From NCBI RefSeq assembly GCF_030580855.1, contig NZ_JAUQOP010000003.1, forward strand, positions 248,001 through 312,000: 64,000 nucleotides of DNA, given 5' to 3'. The notes under the pieces were generated by a model. That model was not told the DNA's origin. It saw only the letters and a program-made list of their open reading frames with translations, and searched no databases. Positions 55,470 through 62,798 of the stretch are shown here, in pieces. Both the position numbers and the translations under genes were made by a program. The stretch's first letter is position 1. Each line of letters begins with the position of its first letter. This DNA is from Pseudomonas citrullilanati. GTDB taxonomy: Bacteria; Pseudomonadota; Gammaproteobacteria; Pseudomonadales; Pseudomonadaceae.

Positions 55470-56291
55470 TCAGCCCCGGATGAAACCCAGCAGGTCCGCG
55501 TTCAAACGATCCTTGTGGGTGTCGGTCAGGCCGTGGGGCGCGCCGGGGTAGACCAGCAGCTGCGAGTGCTTGAGCAACTTGGCGGCGGCGATGCCGGCGG
55601 TCTCGATCGGCACCACCTGGTCGTCGTCGCCATGCACCACCAGGGTCGGCACGTCGATGTTGCGCAGGTCCTCCGACAGATCGGTCTCGGAGAACGCCTT
55701 GATGCAGTCGTAGGTGTTCTTGTGGCCGGCGAGCATGCCTTGCATCCAGAACCAGTCGATCATGCCCTGGGAGACCTTGGCGCCCGGACGGTTGGCGCCG
55801 AAGAACGCGCTGGCCACATCCTTGTATAGCTGAGAACGGTCGGCCAGGGAGGCCTGGCGGAAACCGTCGAACACTTCGATGGGCAGGCCATTGGGGTTGG
55901 AGGCGGTCTTGACCATCAGCGGCGTCACCGCCGAGATCAGGCCGAGCTTGGCGACACGGGCGGCGCCGTGGCGGCCGATATAGCGCGCCACTTCGCCACC
56001 GCCGGTGGAGAAGCCCAGCAGCACCGCGTCCTTGAGGTCCAGGCGCTCGATCAGCTCGGCCAGGTCATCGGCGTAGGTGTCCATGTCGTTTCCATCCCAG
56101 GGTTGGCTGGAACGGCCGTGCCCACGGCGGTCGTGAGCGATCACCCGGTAGCCGTTGGACGCCAGGAACATCATCTGCGCTTCCCAACTGTCCGAGTTCA
56201 ACGGCCAGCCATGACTGAAGACCACCGGTTGGCCACTGCCCCAATCCTTGTAGTAGATCTCGGTACCGTCGCGGGTGATGAAGGTGCTCAT
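55470..56291 (-). CDS. Alpha/beta hydrolase, cofactor-free chloroperoxidase type
   Basis: 273-residue alpha/beta hydrolase of the non-haem haloperoxidase/perhydrolase group. Catalytic triad Ser95 (GFSTGGG), Asp224 (HGDDDQVVP) and His253 ([11 protein letters not shown]); oxyanion segment [11 protein letters not shown]. Full length with family-typical [15 protein letters not shown] start. No signal peptide. Divergent from the large winged-helix ATPase gene across 192 bases. Natural substrate is not known for this group. Confidence 0.9.
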
Positions 56292-56483
56292 TGCCAGGCT
56301 TCCTTGAGAGAGGTGGAGGGCTGCATGGTCCGGTCAACGGCGAGGTGTGCGTGAGTTAAACGTTGTTAATTTTTTGCGCGACGGCTTGAGTGGCGAACGC
56401 GGGGAAGGCTCTGGGCCGTTGCACTTGCAGCCAAACCTGAGGAACATGCTCGGGTATGCGCTCTGCACCGGGAACAGCTATCC

Positions 56484-59285
56484 ATGAGTCAATCCATCCG
56501 CCTGCCCGTCGACCAGACGGTGCATTTCGGCCCCTACCGGGTCCATCCCCGCCAGCGTCTGGTGCTAGAGGGGGGGCAGCCGTTGCGACTCGGGCGGCGG
56601 GCGGTGGAGATTCTGCTGGTGTTGCTCGAACACGCCGGGCAGGTGGTGAGCAAGCAGCAACTGATCGCCCGCGTCTGGCCCACGAGCATCGTTGAAGACA
56701 CCAACCTGCGGGTGCACGTCGCAGCGTTGCGCAAGGCCCTGGGCGACGGCCAGGCCGGCCAGCGCTACATCATCACCGTGGCACAGCGCGGCTACAGCTT
56801 CGTGGCCCCGGTGTCGTTCGCCCCACCCGAGCCGCCCGCCCCCACCCCTGCCCTGGCGCACAACCTGCCGCTGCGCCACACCCGGATGATCGGACGCCAT
56901 GCCTTGCTGGAAAACCTGGTGGCGCAATTGCCGCGCAAACGCTTCATCACCCTGGTCGGAACCGGCGGCATCGGCAAGACCACCGTCGCCCTGCGGGTCG
57001 CCGAACGGCTGATCAGCCGCTATCGCGACGGCAGTTACCTGCTGGACCTGGCCCCGCTGAACGATCCGGCCATGATCGCACCCAACCTGGCGGCGCTGCT
57101 GGAGCTGCCGTTGCAGGACGGCGACCCGCTGGAGGCCATCGCCCGGCAACTCAAGGAGCGACACCTGCTGCTGGTCATCGACAACTGCGAACACCTGATC
57201 GACGCCGTCGCCCAACTCAGCGAAACCCTGCTGCGCGGCGCCCCGCACCTGCACATCCTGGCCACCAGCCGCGAGGCCCTGCGTGCCGAGGGCGAACACG
57301 TACAGCGCCTGGACGCCCTGGCGTTCCCGCCACGGGAAATGCCCATCCAAGGCTTTCCGGCCCTGGCGTACCCGGCCCTGCAACTGTTCGCCGAGCGCGC
57401 GATGGCCAGCCGCGACGACTTCGAGCTGACCGACGACGAGGTGCCGCTGGTGGTCGACATCTGCCGGCGACTGGACGGCATTCCCCTGGCCATCGAACTG
57501 GCCGCCGCGCAAATCAGCCGCTTCAGCGTGCAGCAATTGCACCGGCAACTGCTGGACAACGTGGCCTTGCTGCACAACAGCAGCGACGCCGCCCCCCGCC
57601 AGCAGACCCTGCGCGCCACGCTGGACTGGAGCTTCGCCTTGCTCACCCCTTGCGAGCAGACCTGCCTGCGGCGGCTGGCGGTGTTCGTGGGCAGTTTCAA
57701 CCTGGCCTCGGCGGCGGCCGTGATCGTCGGCCAGCAGGTCGCGCCCGACCAGGTGCTGGTGTCGGTCAGCCAACTGGTGGCCAAATCGTTGCTCAATGTC
57801 GAGATCGGCGACGAAGAGGTGCGCTATCGCCTGCTGGACACCACGCGCAGCTACGCCCTTGAAAAACTCATCGACGCCGAGGAGCTGTCCACGAGCCGGG
57901 AGCGCCACGCCGAACGCTGCCTGACGCTGATGAAGCAGGCCGAGGACGATTGGCACAGCACCCCTACCCGGCTGTGGATCGCCCGCTACGCCACTTATCG
58001 CGACGACATCCGCGCGGCACTCGACTGGGGCTTGTCCGCGCAAGGCGCCCGCACCGTCGCCATCCGCCTGACCACCCGCGCCTTGCCGCTGTGGCAGGAG
58101 CTGTCCTTGCTCAAGGAACATGGCTTGTATGTGAGCAAGGCCCTGGCGCTGCTGCGCAGCGATCCCACGCCGTGCCCGAAGCTGACCCTTGCCCTGGAAC
58201 TGGCCCAGGGCAGCTACCGCTACCACACCGAGGGCGGCACGCCGGCGACCCTCAACGCCTTCATCACGGCCCGACGGCTGGCGCGGCAAAGCCAGGATCT
58301 GCCGGGCGAACTGCGGGCGGTCTCGGGCCACATGGCCGTCAACCTCAGTTGCGGCAACTACCAGCAGGCGCTGGAGCAGAGCCAGGACTTCGACCGCCTG
58401 GGCCCGCAGGGCGACCCGATCCTGTCCCTCAGTGCCTTGCGCCTGCGGGTCCTGGCGTTGCATTTCGCCGGGAACCAGGCCGTGGCGCGCCGCGACGCCG
58501 AGCAGGTGATCCAGCGCATGGCCCAGAGCGGGCACCTGAGTCGCTTCACCCACGGTTTCGGCGTGCAATATGACCAGAGCGTGGCTTCGCTGACCATTCT
58601 GGCGCGCATCCTGTGGCTCCAGGGCTTCGCCGAGAAAGCCCAGCGCACCGCCGACCTGGCGTTGCAGATCGCCCTGCAGATCAACCACGGTACCTCGATC
58701 TGCTACACACTGGCGCTGGCCAGTTGCGTGATCGCCCGCTACAACGGCGATCACAAGACTGCCCGGGACAGGCTCGACCTGTTGCAGCACCAGACGAAAA
58801 AGCACTTCGTGATGTTCTTCCACGACTGGGCCCGTCATTACGCCCGCGCCTTCGCTGACGAAGCGTTGGTCACCGACGCCGCCGGCGCGCGGCTGGTCCA
58901 GGACATCGTCGCCACCCTGCGCGCCGATGCCGTCAGCCCGGCACAACTGGCGCGGGCCCACAGCGGGGCGGCGGGTTGGTGTGCGGCGGAGATCCTTCGG
59001 GCCGACGCGCAAAGCTTGCTGGCACGCAATGACCCCGCGCTCGAGGCACGTGCCGAGGAACAATTGCTGAAGTCGCTGGAGGTGGCCCGGCGTGACAACG
59101 CCCTGGCTTGGGAACTGCGCAGCGCCACGACCCTGGCGCGGCTGTGGCAGCGCCGGGGCCAGGACGTCGACGCCCAAGGTTTGCTCGGCCCGGTCTATCG
59201 ACGCTTCACCGAAGGCTTCGACACCCCCGACCTAGTGGAGGCCGGCGCGTTGCTCCAGGCCTTGTCTCGGCGGTGCGGCCCTTGA
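56484..59285 (+). CDS. Winged-helix / STAND-type ATPase regulator, long form
   Basis: 933-residue predicted regulator. OmpR-type winged helix at residues 12-108 (LRLGRRAVEILLVLLEHAGQ, VWPTSIVEDTNLRVHVAALRK), then an NB-ARC/STAND NTPase with Walker A GTGGIGKTT (159-167) and Walker B LLLVID (228-233), the GIPLAIELAAAQ motif, and a helical, probably TPR-like C-terminal half (from about 480). In such proteins ligand binding to the sensor half and ATP-driven assembly control transcription. Its 3' end overlaps the shorter paralogue by 54 bases. Confidence 0.85.
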   Translation: MSQSIRLPVDQTVHFGPYRVHPRQRLVLEGGQPLRLGRRAVEILLVLLEHAGQVVSKQQLIARVWPTSIVEDTNLRVHVAALRKALGDGQAGQRYIITVAQRGYSFVAPVSFAPPEPPAPTPALAHNLPLRHTRMIGRHALLENLVAQLPRKRFITLVGTGGIGKTTVALRVAERLISRYRDGSYLLDLAPLNDPAMIAPNLAALLELPLQDGDPLEAIARQLKERHLLLVIDNCEHLIDAVAQLSETLLRGAPHLHILATSREALRAEGEHVQRLDALAFPPREMPIQGFPALAYPALQLFAERAMASRDDFELTDDEVPLVVDICRRLDGIPLAIELAAAQISRFSVQQLHRQLLDNVALLHNSSDAAPRQQTLRATLDWSFALLTPCEQTCLRRLAVFVGSFNLASAAAVIVGQQVAPDQVLVSVSQLVAKSLLNVEIGDEEVRYRLLDTTRSYALEKLIDAEELSTSRERHAERCLTLMKQAEDDWHSTPTRLWIARYATYRDDIRAALDWGLSAQGARTVAIRLTTRALPLWQELSLLKEHGLYVSKALALLRSDPTPCPKLTLALELAQGSYRYHTEGGTPATLNAFITARRLARQSQDLPGELRAVSGHMAVNLSCGNYQQALEQSQDFDRLGPQGDPILSLSALRLRVLALHFAGNQAVARRDAEQVIQRMAQSGHLSRFTHGFGVQYDQSVASLTILARILWLQGFAEKAQRTADLALQIALQINHGTSICYTLALASCVIARYNGDHKTARDRLDLLQHQTKKHFVMFFHDWARHYARAFADEALVTDAAGARLVQDIVATLRADAVSPAQLARAHSGAAGWCAAEILRADAQSLLARNDPALEARAEEQLLKSLEVARRDNALAWELRSATTLARLWQRRGQDVDAQGLLGPVYRRFTEGFDTPDLVEAGALLQALSRRCGP

Positions 59286-60698
59286 ACGCAGTGGCCGCCA
59301 CGCGTCCTGCAGGACGTAGCGCCGGTAATACAGCGACCACTGGCCACTGCGCCGGAGTTTTTCCAGGGCATAGGCACGGGTGGTGTTGAGCCAGGAAAAC
59401 CGCACCCCATGGGCGCCCTGCTCGACCATCACCAGGGATTGGCTGGCCAGCCGCGACAACAACCAGGGCAACTGATCCGCGTCCAACTCCGGGCAACTGA
59501 TGACCGCCATCGCCGCCTTCAGGGTAAAGGGTCGGTCGAACACCGCCAGCCGTTGGAACACCCGTTGCTCGGCTGCGCCCAGGCGCTCGAAACTCCAATC
59601 CAGCATGGCCTCCAGGCTTTGATGACGAGCCACCGCGGTACGCCGCCCGTGGCTCAGCCACGAGAGCCCGTGCTCCAGTTGCTCCAGGACGCCGGCCAGG
59701 CCCAACACCCCGACCTGGGCCGCGGCGAGCTCCAGCGCCAGCGGCAAACCGTCCAGGCGCTGGCAGATCTGCGCGATCGCCACCAGGTCGCGGTCCGTGG
59801 CGGTGAAGCCTTGCTGCCGGGCACCGATCCGCTCGATCAGCAACTGGGTGGCCGGGCTCGCCCGCAGTTGCGGCTCGAGTTCCAGGGGCGATACCAGCGC
59901 CAGGCCCGGCAGTAGCACCGCGCATTCGTCGGCCACGTTCAAGGGCTCGCGGCTGCTCAACAGCAATGTCACCCCGGGTGCCGAGGCCCCTACCTGCAAG
60001 GCCAACTCCCGACAGGCTTCCAGCACATGTTCGCAGCCATCGAGCACCAGCAAGAGATGCCGCGGCTGCAGGTGCCGGGCCAGGGTGTCGGCCGCAACGC
60101 CCAGGGCGTGCGCCACCTGCGCCTGAACCTGATGCGGCTCGGTGATGGCGGCCAGGTCGACAAACCAGGCGCCGTCGGCAAAATGCTCCAGCAACAGCTC
60201 CGCCACCCGCAACACCACGGTGGTCTTGCCGACACCGCCCGGACCGGTCACGGTGGTCAGGCGCCGGCGCGGTACCTCGGCCAACAATTGCCCCAGCACT
60301 TTATCGCGACCGATCACCGGGCTCAGCCGGGCCGGCAGGTTGTGCCGTTCCAGGTTGGCTGCCGGGACCAGGGTTGCGGCCAGGCAATAGCCTTGCCGGG
60401 GGTCGTTGAGGATGTACTGGCTACCGTCCTTCCCATCGCCAAAGGCCCGGCGCAGTGCCGCGATATGCACCCGCAGGTTGATCTCTTCGACGACGCTGTC
60501 CGGCCAGACGCTGGCCAACAGCGCTTGCTTGCTGACATAGGTGCCGGCGTGCTCCACCAGCACCTGGAGAATGTCCAGGGCCCGCCCACCCAGCGTGAGC
60601 GGTTCGCCATCGCGGCTGACCAGGCGCTGCTGGCGGTGAAAGACAAACGGACCGAAGCCCACCGTGGCTTCGGTATCGGGTTTGACGAAACTGTTCAT
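59232..60698 (-). CDS. Winged-helix / STAND-type ATPase regulator, short form
   Basis: 488-residue paralogue of the convergent 933-residue protein. Winged helix 15-108 (LTLGGRALDILQVLVEHAGT, VWPDSVVEEINLRVHIAALRR), Walker A GPGGVGKTT (152-160), Walker B LLLVLDGCEHV, and GLPLALELAAAQVG. It ends shortly after NTTRAYALEKL, the point where the long form goes into its sensor half, so it lacks the TPR-like region. The last 54 bases overlap the 3' end of the long gene on the other strand. Natural short form or truncation cannot be told from this window alone. Confidence 0.82.
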   Translation of the reverse strand: MNSFVKPDTEATVGFGPFVFHRQQRLVSRDGEPLTLGGRALDILQVLVEHAGTYVSKQALLASVWPDSVVEEINLRVHIAALRRAFGDGKDGSQYILNDPRQGYCLAATLVPAANLERHNLPARLSPVIGRDKVLGQLLAEVPRRRLTTVTGPGGVGKTTVVLRVAELLLEHFADGAWFVDLAAITEPHQVQAQVAHALGVAADTLARHLQPRHLLLVLDGCEHVLEACRELALQVGASAPGVTLLLSSREPLNVADECAVLLPGLALVSPLELEPQLRASPATQLLIERIGARQQGFTATDRDLVAIAQICQRLDGLPLALELAAAQVGVLGLAGVLEQLEHGLSWLSHGRRTAVARHQSLEAMLDWSFERLGAAEQRVFQRLAVFDRPFTLKAAMAVISCPELDADQLPWLLSRLASQSLVMVEQGAHGVRFSWLNTTRAYALEKLRRSGQWSLYYRRYVLQDAWRPLRSRAAPPRQGLEQRAGLH

Positions 60699-60881
60699 GA
60701 GCGATCCCGCGCCGGATAACCGCTACGGGCACCACGTCCCGAGTCAACGAACGCGTCTGCCCCGGCTCCTGCACATCCTTTCCTGAGGGTGTGCCGTTAT
60801 CTTGGCAGCCATCGTTTGCAGGACAATGCTGGCACGGGGCGCGACACGGACATGACGATGCCCTGGACGGACAATCGGGGT

Positions 60882-61832
60882 TCAACTGAACTGCTGGCGA
60901 TACTGCACCGGCGTCAATCCGAGCTTTTCACTGAACAGCGAGCGCATGTGCCGGACACTGCCGAAGCCGCTGCGAAAGGCCACGGTCTTGAGCGGCAGGT
61001 CGGTGCTTTCCAGCAACTGGCGCGCCCGGTCAATGCGCGCGCCTTGCAGGAACTCCATCGGCGTCATCTTCACTTCGCGGGCGAACACCCGGGCGAAATG
61101 CCGTGAGCTCATGGCCGCCAGCGCCGCCATGCGCTCGATGGTGAACGGTTCCTCCAGGTGCTCCATGACATGGTTCTGCACCCGGGTGATGGGCGATTCC
61201 TGCGCCGCCACAGCCGCCACCAGCGGGCTGAACTGTGCCTGCCCGCCCTGGCGCTTCATGACCACCAGCAAGACCTTGGCCACGTCCAGTGCAACCTTGC
61301 GGCCGTGGTCCTGGGCGACGATGTGCAGGGCCAGGTCGATCCCGGCGGTGACGCCGCCGGAGGTCATCAGGCGGCGGTCCTGCAGGTAGATCTTGTCGGT
61401 CTCCACCAACGCCTTGGGAAAACGCCTGATCAGTCGTTCGGTGTAATGCCAGTGGGTGGTGACGCGGTAGCCGTCGAGCAACCCGGCCTCGCCCAGCACA
61501 AAGGCACCGGTGCAGATGGAGCCGTAGCGCGTGGCCCGTTGCGCGGCGGCCTTCAGCCAGATGTGCAACCCCGGGTGCCGGTCGTTATAGGCGCCCGGCC
61601 CGCCCGGCACCAGCAGCACGTCATAAGCGGCCCAGGCCTGGTCGATATGGATATCGGCTTCGACCTTGACGCCGTTGGACGCGCGCAACGCCCCGCGCTC
61701 GGTACCCAGGGTCAGTAACTGATAATGATGTTGCGGTTCAAGGTAGCGGTTGGCGATGGAAAACACTTCGAGGGGCCCGGCCATGTCGAGCAGCAAAAAA
61801 TCCGGGAACAGCACCATTGCAACGGTTTTCAT
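60882..61832 (-). CDS. GlxA-family (DJ-1/PfpI + AraC) transcriptional regulator
   Basis: 316-residue regulator with an N-terminal DJ-1/PfpI-like domain (residues 1-165: VAMVLFPDFLLLDMAGPLEVF, DVLLVPGGPGAYN, YGSICTGAFVLGEAGLLDG) and a C-terminal AraC double helix-turn-helix (about 215-315: TIERMAALAAMSSRHFARVF and LPLKTVAFRSGFGSVRHMR). It is of the FtrA/GlxA type. The ATG at 61832 is preferred; a TTG at 61883 would add 17 unrelated residues. Divergent from the pirin gene, which may be its target. Confidence 0.9.
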   Translation of the reverse strand: MKTVAMVLFPDFLLLDMAGPLEVFSIANRYLEPQHHYQLLTLGTERGALRASNGVKVEADIHIDQAWAAYDVLLVPGGPGAYNDRHPGLHIWLKAAAQRATRYGSICTGAFVLGEAGLLDGYRVTTHWHYTERLIRRFPKALVETDKIYLQDRRLMTSGGVTAGIDLALHIVAQDHGRKVALDVAKVLLVVMKRQGGQAQFSPLVAAVAAQESPITRVQNHVMEHLEEPFTIERMAALAAMSSRHFARVFAREVKMTPMEFLQGARIDRARQLLESTDLPLKTVAFRSGFGSVRHMRSLFSEKLGLTPVQYRQQFS

Positions 61833-62075
61833 CGGGAATACGCCAAGATGGAACAGAATCGGTAAAGCCCGGTGGGGAGACAAACCTCATCCCACCAGTT
61901 TCGAGCGACATTATGTCGAAGCGAAGCGAGCGCAGATAGGCATTCACCATTGTCCACTCAAAAGAGACAGTCTTTCGTTTTCAACCTGCTTATTGAATGG
62001 GTCGATAACCATTAATCTTCTTCCGAACCCGGCGAACGGCCCAGCCGCCGCCCACAGACATCAGGAGAAACCATC

Positions 62076-62798
62076 ATGCTGACCCTTCGCAAAGCTTCGG
62101 ATCGCGGCATCGCCCGCCACGGCTGGCTGACCTCGTTCCACACCTTTTCCTTCGCCAACTACCGCGACCTCAACCAACAAGGCTTCTCCGACCTGCTGGT
62201 CATCAACGACGACCGCGTCGCCGCCGCCAAGGGGTTCGGCCAGCATCCCCACCGGGACATGGAGATTTTCTCCTATGTGCTCGAAGGCGCGCTGGAGCAC
62301 AAGGACACCCTGGGCACCGGCTCGGTCATTCGCCCCGGCGACGTCCAGTTGATGAGCGCCGGCAGCGGTGTGGCCCACAGCGAGTTCAACCACAGCGCGG
62401 ACGAGTTGGTGCACTTCCTGCAAATCTGGATCGTGCCCAACGTCAGCGGCGCCCAGCCCCGCTATCAACAGGAGCATTTCAGCGCCGAACAGAAACGCGG
62501 TCGCCTGCAATTGATCATTTCCCCGGACGGCGCCGACGGCTCCCTTGAAGTTCGCCAGGACGCGCGGGTCTACGCCGGGCTGTTCGACGGCAGCGAAAGT
62601 GCGACCCTGGCCCTGGCAAAGGACCGTTACGCCTACGTGCATGTCGCCCGGGGCTCGGTCGAACTCAATGGCCTGGCGTTGCAGGAAGGCGATGGCGTGC
62701 GGGTCCGCGAGGAGCAAGCGCTGACACTGGGCAACGGCGTGGATGCGGAAGTGCTGGTATTCGACCTGCAGCCGCGGGAACTGCCACAGATGCCTTGA
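62076..62798 (+). CDS. Pirin family protein (YhhW-like bicupin)
   Basis: 240-residue bicupin. The N-terminal cupin metal site is in GFGQHPHRDMEIFSYVLEG (His, His) and SAGSGVAHSEFNHS; the C-terminal cupin is less conserved, as in YhhW, a quercetinase in vitro. AGGAG precedes the ATG at 62076. The 243-base gap to the divergent GlxA regulator holds both promoters, though none is clear by eye. Role here likely redox or aromatic metabolism, by family only. Confidence 0.9.
   Translation: MLTLRKASDRGIARHGWLTSFHTFSFANYRDLNQQGFSDLLVINDDRVAAAKGFGQHPHRDMEIFSYVLEGALEHKDTLGTGSVIRPGDVQLMSAGSGVAHSEFNHSADELVHFLQIWIVPNVSGAQPRYQQEHFSAEQKRGRLQLIISPDGADGSLEVRQDARVYAGLFDGSESATLALAKDRYAYVHVARGSVELNGLALQEGDGVRVREEQALTLGNGVDAEVLVFDLQPRELPQMP

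Follow-up and report, generated by a model that had tools for sequence, protein, structure and literature searches.

A conserved tail-to-tail pair of long and short STAND regulators in Pseudomonas, and an AraC-family neighbour predicted to control the short one

The stretch of DNA analysed here (64,000 nucleotides of Pseudomonas citrullilanati, contig NZ_JAUQOP010000003.1 of assembly GCF_030580855.1, positions 248,001 to 312,000; hereafter the window) carries two STAND-type regulators, one long and one short, whose genes converge and overlap at their 3' ends, together with a GATase1-like AraC-family regulator directly upstream of the short gene (Table 1). We found that the convergent long/short pair is a conserved arrangement of Pseudomonas, more than chance or a local accident, and that the tightest companion of the short gene, judging by its distribution across genomes, is the GATase1-AraC gene. 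The short protein lacks the sensor half of the long one and appears to be a working part of the locus.

Pfam searches assigned to both proteins a Trans_reg_C winged helix (PF00486) and a STAND/NB-ARC-type P-loop ATPase, with AAA_22 above the cut-off in both and the NB-ARC profile barely above it, in the short protein only. When the short protein was used as query against its own 5.8-Mb genome, the long one was the sole other match spanning both domains (44% identity), and the four remaining matches (E ≤ 0.001) covered the winged helix alone. The initial annotation, which described paralogues of the same architecture sharing 54 bases tail to tail, is thereby borne out. A nucleotide-binding domain, helical domain and winged-helix domain core typical of STANDs (NOD) is indicated by Walker A, the Walker B Asp, the sensor Arg, the GxP motif, structural models and fold matches. 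An arm and TPR-like repeat sensor follow the NOD in the long protein and are absent from the short one, as had been proposed: residues 468-931 of the long AlphaFold2 model are almost wholly helical (predicted local distance difference test score, pLDDT, 83.0), and the confident part of the short model (pLDDT 82.5) ends at about residue 467, followed by 20 disordered residues. No BTA domain was among the Pfam hits at E ≤ 0.001 in either protein, the spacing between winged helix and NOD being only about 20 residues, nor was there a hit to a C-terminal LuxR helix-turn-helix at that threshold, the DNA-binding domain being N-terminal in both. Among solved structures the winged helix is closest by sequence to CadC and the ATPase core to AfsR, and the closest named relatives found are themselves from Pseudomonas (P. 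fluorescens ISL-33, 82%; P. corrugata, 76%).

Table 1. Genes, domains and sequence elements of the locus, in window coordinates
Feature	Position	Strand	Remarks
Long STAND regulator, 933 residues, ATG start	56484..59285	+	OmpR-type winged helix, NB-ARC/NOD ATPase, helical arm, TPR-like sensor
Short STAND regulator, 488 residues, ATG start	59232..60698	-	Winged helix and NOD only; conserved in the genus
Winged helix of the long protein, residues 31-106	56574..56801	+	Pfam PF00486, E 7e-19
Winged helix of the short protein, residues 31-106	60381..60608	-	Pfam PF00486; recognition helix partly common to the long protein
Helical arm and TPR-like sensor half of the long protein, residues 468-931	57885..59276	+	AlphaFold2 model, Foldseek; lacking in the short protein
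NOD ATPase core of the short protein, about residues 122-452	59343..60335	-	Motifs and model
Motifs in the NOD core of the short protein			Walker A 152-159, Walker B Asp220, Arg250, GxPLA 317-321
Tail-to-tail coding overlap, 54 nt	59232..59285	both	Codon-on-codon antisense register
GATase1-like AraC-family regulator	60882..61883	-	DJ-1/PfpI domain (PF01965) and HTH_18 (PF12833); directly upstream of the short gene, same strand
Direct repeat TGTCCGT-N14-TGTCCGT, 21-nt period	60846..60873	-	Predicted GATase1-AraC operator before the short gene
Conserved block AAACCTGAGGAAYATGCTC upstream of the long gene	56433..56451	+	≤3 mismatches in 45/83 loci
Pirin gene, divergent from the AraC gene	62076..62798	+	Conserved neighbour, 76/81 loci
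Alpha/beta hydrolase gene, divergent from the long gene	55470..56291	-	Same cluster in 26/81 loci

The distribution of the pair was followed in 199 Pseudomonas genomes, an even sample from a larger group that includes the genome of the window. Long orthologues were defined by a match of their C-terminal half (E ≤ 1e-20), which was obtained in 87 genomes; three of these matches (G059, G068 and G197) were weak, at about 30%, leaving 84 orthologues. All 84 long-bearing loci were read (79 within the first 81 loci, which are 80 plus the window, and five more), and in every one of them a short gene converges with the long one, overlapping it in 82. The overlap measures 54 nt in 36 loci, 36 nt in 22, 24 nt in 10 and 39 nt in 5, the remaining lengths occurring once or twice each within an overall range of 9-108 nt; it is a multiple of three in 80 of the 82, and in the two loci without overlap 65 and 152 nt separate the genes. 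Collected in this way, the homologues confirm that both the short form and the tail-to-tail arrangement are conserved.

The short form itself was read in 95 loci, four of them from other genera of the family and one from another family, and all encode proteins of about 455-517 residues by estimated start, none with the C-terminal half (in 86 loci the estimated lengths are 457-517 residues, median 489). Eighty aligned short proteins terminate about one helix past the last conserved ATPase-core motif. Ratios of nonsynonymous to synonymous substitution (dN/dS) in 11 close pairs were 0.10-0.24 for the short gene and 0.06-0.18 for the long. Walker A is intact in 86/86 short and 84/84 long proteins, and in the aligned columns of the short ones the Walker B Asp220 and GxPLA are invariant and Arg250 is kept in 99%; regular expressions missed Walker B in 35/86 short and 3/84 long proteins and the sensor Arg in 9/86 short ones, misses which reflect variation beside the motif residues. 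Median pairwise divergence is 0.49 for the short protein against 0.32 for the matching half of the long one, making the short about 1.5 times as fast, and the two distance matrices correlate (r = 0.94 over 83 pairs; 0 of 999 permutations as high). In one locus (L103) the short gene, hidden beneath a shadow open reading frame (ORF), and in another (L110) the AraC gene were established by search plus tblastn. By these measures the short gene is under purifying selection.

Within the genus the three genes are nested in their presence: the long gene occurs in 84 genomes, the short in 90 and GATase1-AraC, called at E ≤ 1e-110, in 121 (7 candidates were scored per genome in the short search and ten in the AraC search). 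The short search matched 107 genomes, 17 of which were assigned to other subfamilies, nine after being read or placed and eight (G056, G085, G115, G152, G182, G184, G192 and G195) by weak E-value alone. The long gene was never found without the short one, and six genomes carry the short gene with no intact long (G001, G042, G147, G164, G166 and G154, the last with a long copy cut to about 563 residues). At this G154 locus (L147:5335-8987) both members of the pair are short, with frames of 581 and 545 codons, so that the long too is without its sensor half. The GATase1-AraC gene is present in 88 of the 90 short-bearing genomes; in the two exceptions it is either broken between two frames (G034) or represented at best by a relative of 48% identity (G044). 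In 92 of the 95 short loci the AraC gene is found upstream, in the same orientation as the short gene and no more than 1.7 kb away. The split copy counts among these 92, and the gap to the short gene is 183 nt in the window, with a median of 154.5 nt in the 92. The five short loci from outside the genus have no long gene beside the short, although these genomes were not themselves searched for the C-terminal half of the long protein, and two of them (G519 and G603) have further full-length members of the family at other places. Because of this nesting, AraC plus the short gene looks like the core of the locus and the long gene like an optional part. The suggestion in the initial annotation that the short protein could act as a partner of the long one fits its conservation. 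The short is no appendage of the long, however, since it also occurs without it.

Between the AraC and short genes there is a direct repeat with the consensus TGKCCGT-N14-TGKCCGT. In 87 loci it was found upstream of the short gene with no mismatch in 70, one in 14, two in 2 and four in 1, whereas none of 84 long upstream regions matched at ≤2 mismatches (one of these, L049, lies at a contig edge and has almost no upstream sequence) and only 2/88 letter-shuffled short upstream sequences did so. The sole pair locus without the repeat (L067) belongs to G044, the genome that lost AraC, and the repeat stays with the short gene where AraC sits elsewhere (L142/G009, and L080/G018 with AraC 2 kb off). 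The exact repeat occurs once in its own genome; at ≤1 mismatch it has 36 matches against 54 for a reversed control, so that genome-wide only the exact match counts. Among AraC-bearing genomes that lack the short gene, 17 of 33 were examined, and in 9/17 a copy of the repeat with ≤2 mismatches lies no further than about 60 nt from the end of araC, a limit chosen after the data were seen; chance would give 0.02 cases from shuffles, or about 0.14 from the density of the 17 other matches in the real window. The next gene on the same strand is a small AraC gene in 5 of these nine and an alpha/beta hydrolase in one. In one genome without short and long genes (G114, locus L223), AraC and a weaker repeat (2 mismatches) precede alpha/beta hydrolase, LysR and DoxX genes, which is perhaps an empty state of the locus.

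Known operators of related proteins resemble this element. Published work gives the CdhR half-site as GGTCGC with a 15-bp spacer, reported as very similar to the sites of GbdR, SouR and ArgR (PMC5806209), and that of P. aeruginosa ArgR as TGTCGCN6GNAA in tandem with 5 bp between (PMC10963909); as given there, both layouts amount to the 21-nt period of the repeat before the short gene. These GATase1-AraC regulators of Pseudomonas (GbdR, CdhR, ArgR and SouR) have the same GATase1-like and HTH domains as the neighbour AraC, and their operators have the same period and a similar half-site; the difference is that the apparent main target of the neighbour AraC is another regulator, the short STAND protein. 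We consider control of the short gene by AraC through this putative operator to be a well-supported prediction from the sequence comparisons. Upstream of the long gene we found a different conserved element, the block AAACCTGAGGAAYATGCTC, at 46-120 nt before the start among the loci listed; it has a single exact match in its own genome, with one further place at 3 mismatches, and is possibly a promoter or a site specific to the long gene.

Fold comparisons set the two models apart. For the short model the first six ranks among the fold matches are CED-4, followed by plant resistosomes and the active apoptosome; it matches CED-4 from the CED-9 complex (2a5y_C; Z 28.5, 2.7 Å over 309 residues) and from the CED-4 apoptosome (3lqq_B; Z 28.2), and fits ADP-bound Apaf-1 only in part (3sfz, 13.0 Å over 253; 1z6t_A, 3.6 Å over 230). 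The long model, by contrast, superposes with lower rmsd on several resting forms, among them Apaf-1 (3shf, 8.1 Å over 536 columns) and NRC2 (8rfh, 5.5 Å over 376), than on the active apoptosome (5juy, 22.3 Å) or CED-4 (8jo0, 16.2 Å), and its Foldseek list is headed by the STAND-TPR protein 6mfv, with MalT domain III (1hz4) at rank 38. This resemblance of the short model to activated STANDs and of the long model to resting ones is suggestive only.

Each of the parts is known (STAND regulators, GATase1-AraC operators and the sensorless CED-4). AfsR of Streptomyces, a large Streptomyces antibiotic regulatory protein (SARP; 8k60, 8jke), is, among bacterial proteins of solved structure, the closest in sequence to the ATPase core and, like the long protein, combines an OmpR-type DNA-binding domain, a NOD and a helical/TPR sensor; here, however, the winged helix leads into the NOD with no intervening BTA domain, the short protein has neither arm nor sensor, and the genes are paired. 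MalT and other TPR-STANDs (PH0952, 6mfv) share NOD, arm and TPR-like sensor with the long protein, in which the DNA-binding domain is instead N-terminal and OmpR-type, and MalT is not known to have a short partner. CED-4 of C. elegans, the best fold match of the short protein, is likewise a STAND core without C-terminal sensor, and is controlled by a protein inhibitor; its effector is a CARD and not a DNA-binding domain, and the short protein is apparently controlled by transcription. The closest solved DNA-binding domains by sequence, the winged helices of the CadC/ToxR proteins, belong to membrane-anchored proteins; here a STAND ATPase follows.

A tree of 110 rows (quick IQ-TREE run, midpoint root, with Shimodaira-Hasegawa-like approximate likelihood ratio test (SH-aLRT) support only, and for which the program warns of long branches) places the short proteins in one clade (38 rows, SH-aLRT 97) and the long ones in a separate clade that has 28 rows and also takes in the shortened G154 copy (SH-aLRT 100), whose inner order is similar by eye; the outgroup has 42 rows, 30 of them full-length, and the position of L192, which is among the 95 short loci, is ambiguous. 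These sequences are most simply read as the outcome of a single ancient inverted duplication, in which the parent gene was full-length and one of the two copies would later have shed arm and sensor. The tree requires 8 short/long changes, and therefore short forms arose elsewhere too. In another family of the phylum we found a convergent pair (L191:5887-10434) with long and short frames of 964 and 493 codons separated by 171 nt without overlap; the two are sisters (SH-aLRT 100) and thus an independent case of the same arrangement. Pseudomonas itself has another short subfamily of about 527 residues (L156, L157 and L160), each member adjoining a gene whose product has about 205 residues. At E ≤ 1e-40 relatives are scarce in the class sample (2/273 genomes other than its own); they occur in 32/398 genomes of the phylum sample and in 410 plasmid records, the latter all below 60% identity.

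Drawing these data together, we tentatively favour, with somewhat less than even confidence, a conserved three-regulator unit in which AraC sets the supply of the sensorless short protein, which acts jointly with the sensor-bearing long one. GATase1-AraC would bind the direct repeat and control transcription of the short gene. The product, a winged helix with an intact STAND core, may be constitutively open: work on STANDs with a TPR sensor describes the arm, and the sensor too, as keeping the core closed (PMC6468293; PMC4381067), and a protein without these closing parts should not wait for ligand. Its activity would then be set by the amount that AraC lets be made, with the long protein as the ligand-gated member under its own promoter, and the two might act jointly by mixed assembly on DNA at common sites. 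Joint action is the most likely form of the relationship, because the pair is kept together, probably stems from one duplication and has the same kind of oligomerising core. When short and long proteins from the same genome are compared, 11/15 columns of the recognition helix (residues 72-86) agree in 80% of pairs or more, and fixed differences fall at positions 79 and 84 inside the helix and 38, 45, 98 and 100 outside it; this helix is conserved family-wide, and so its agreement is weak evidence for common sites and does not single out the pair. A fuller version, which we regard as unlikely, is a bacterial paired-STAND switch like the helper/sensor NLR pairs, in which the AraC-induced sensorless factor would nucleate mixed oligomers with the ligand-gated long protein on common operators, and output would need two signals, that of AraC and that of the long protein.

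Several observations weigh against the three-regulator unit. By hand count the short protein of the window matches its long partner at 10/15 helix positions and the phylum-level outgroup L173 at 11/15, which lowers the odds of the three-regulator unit and of its fuller, paired-switch version. The open and closed forms come from AlphaFold2 models built on shallow alignments (26 and 21 sequences), and the top hit of the long model, 6mfv, superposes poorly as a whole (17.5 Å). According to the AfsR study, AfsR deprived of its TPR domain behaves as a monomer and remains a weaker activator than its DNA-binding part alone (PMC10936776). As regards AraC, 33 genus genomes have it with no short gene, and 8 of the 17 examined lack a repeat at the corresponding place; four of the ten loci with short but no long gene (L193, L194, L195 and L197) have AraC upstream and 3-5 mismatches, hence no recognisable repeat, and L092/G034 retains the repeat despite its split AraC. 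Real DNA matches the pattern often when 2 mismatches are allowed (18 times in the window, against 2.66 in shuffles), and ArgR half-site spacing is described as variable in P. alloputida (PMC10963909). A shared short/long operator was also sought: the upstream region of the long gene lacks the repeat, and since neither the repeat nor the AAACCTGAGGAAYATGCTC block has a second exact match in the genome, no shared target or regulon was found there.

Of the alternatives the best placed, though still rather doubtful, is that the short protein is a free-standing regulator of the pathway of AraC, the long one being a paralogue with other targets that has merely stayed next to it since the inverted duplication. 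It is favoured by loci that have the short and AraC genes and lack the long, by the differing upstream elements of the two genes and by the helix comparison with the outgroup, which raises its odds; yet the long gene is never without the short in 84 genomes and converges with it in all of them. It is unlikely that the short protein is instead an antagonist, occupying operators of the long protein or capping mixed oligomers so that AraC would shut off the targets of the long. The like domains and intact core, the constant company of the long gene (84/84), the faster evolution of the short and an AraC-type repeat at the short gene and not at the long would all suit an antagonist, but it may have nothing to oppose in the 6/90 genus genomes without an intact long or in the five genomes of other genera with no long beside the short, and its ATPase motifs are retained. 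Control by overlapping transcription is an established idea (PMC7154746), and the overlap could itself be the device, with convergent transcripts lacking a terminator between them and expression of one gene lowering the other; the 82 overlapping loci and the chance-level count of terminator-like sites in the region (6 against 5.7 expected) agree with this, but the overlap varies in length, two loci have a gap in its place, and a fixed register is expected from descent alone, so that we judge it improbable. Finally, that the short gene is a truncation on its way to decay, as the initial annotation had entertained, is scarcely credible: it does lack half of an architecture present in most outgroups and evolves faster than the matching half of the long, but the similar length in 95 loci with none bearing the C-terminal half, the low dN/dS, the intact ATPase motifs and the conserved upstream repeat refute it as far as sequence goes.

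The surroundings of the three genes hint at metabolic or redox functions. Besides those in Table 1, frequent neighbours in the 81 loci are a LysR regulator (68), an amidohydrolase that we take to be YtcJ-like (31) and DoxX (28). In L104, the single example viewed of a cluster of 13 loci (cluster 15), an ORF near pirin encodes repeats of about 13 residues of the IRTAFxQxxFLQT type, which may be the shadow of a DNA repeat.

Our searches of the open-licence literature brought up no account of a long and a short transcription factor stably paired in this way, with nested dependence and a repeat of AraC type, and by title none of the COG3903 literature there concerns this pair, in agreement with the initial remark that it is little described. 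STAND proteins have mostly been studied as single autoinhibited switches; at this locus many species of one genus have retained a natural form reduced to the core, side by side with the full-length sister. The conserved upstream repeat suggests that control of this form has shifted from ligand binding to transcription, and the pair offers a small, genetically tractable bacterial system in which to ask what a STAND core does without its arm and sensor, and whether two STANDs co-assemble.

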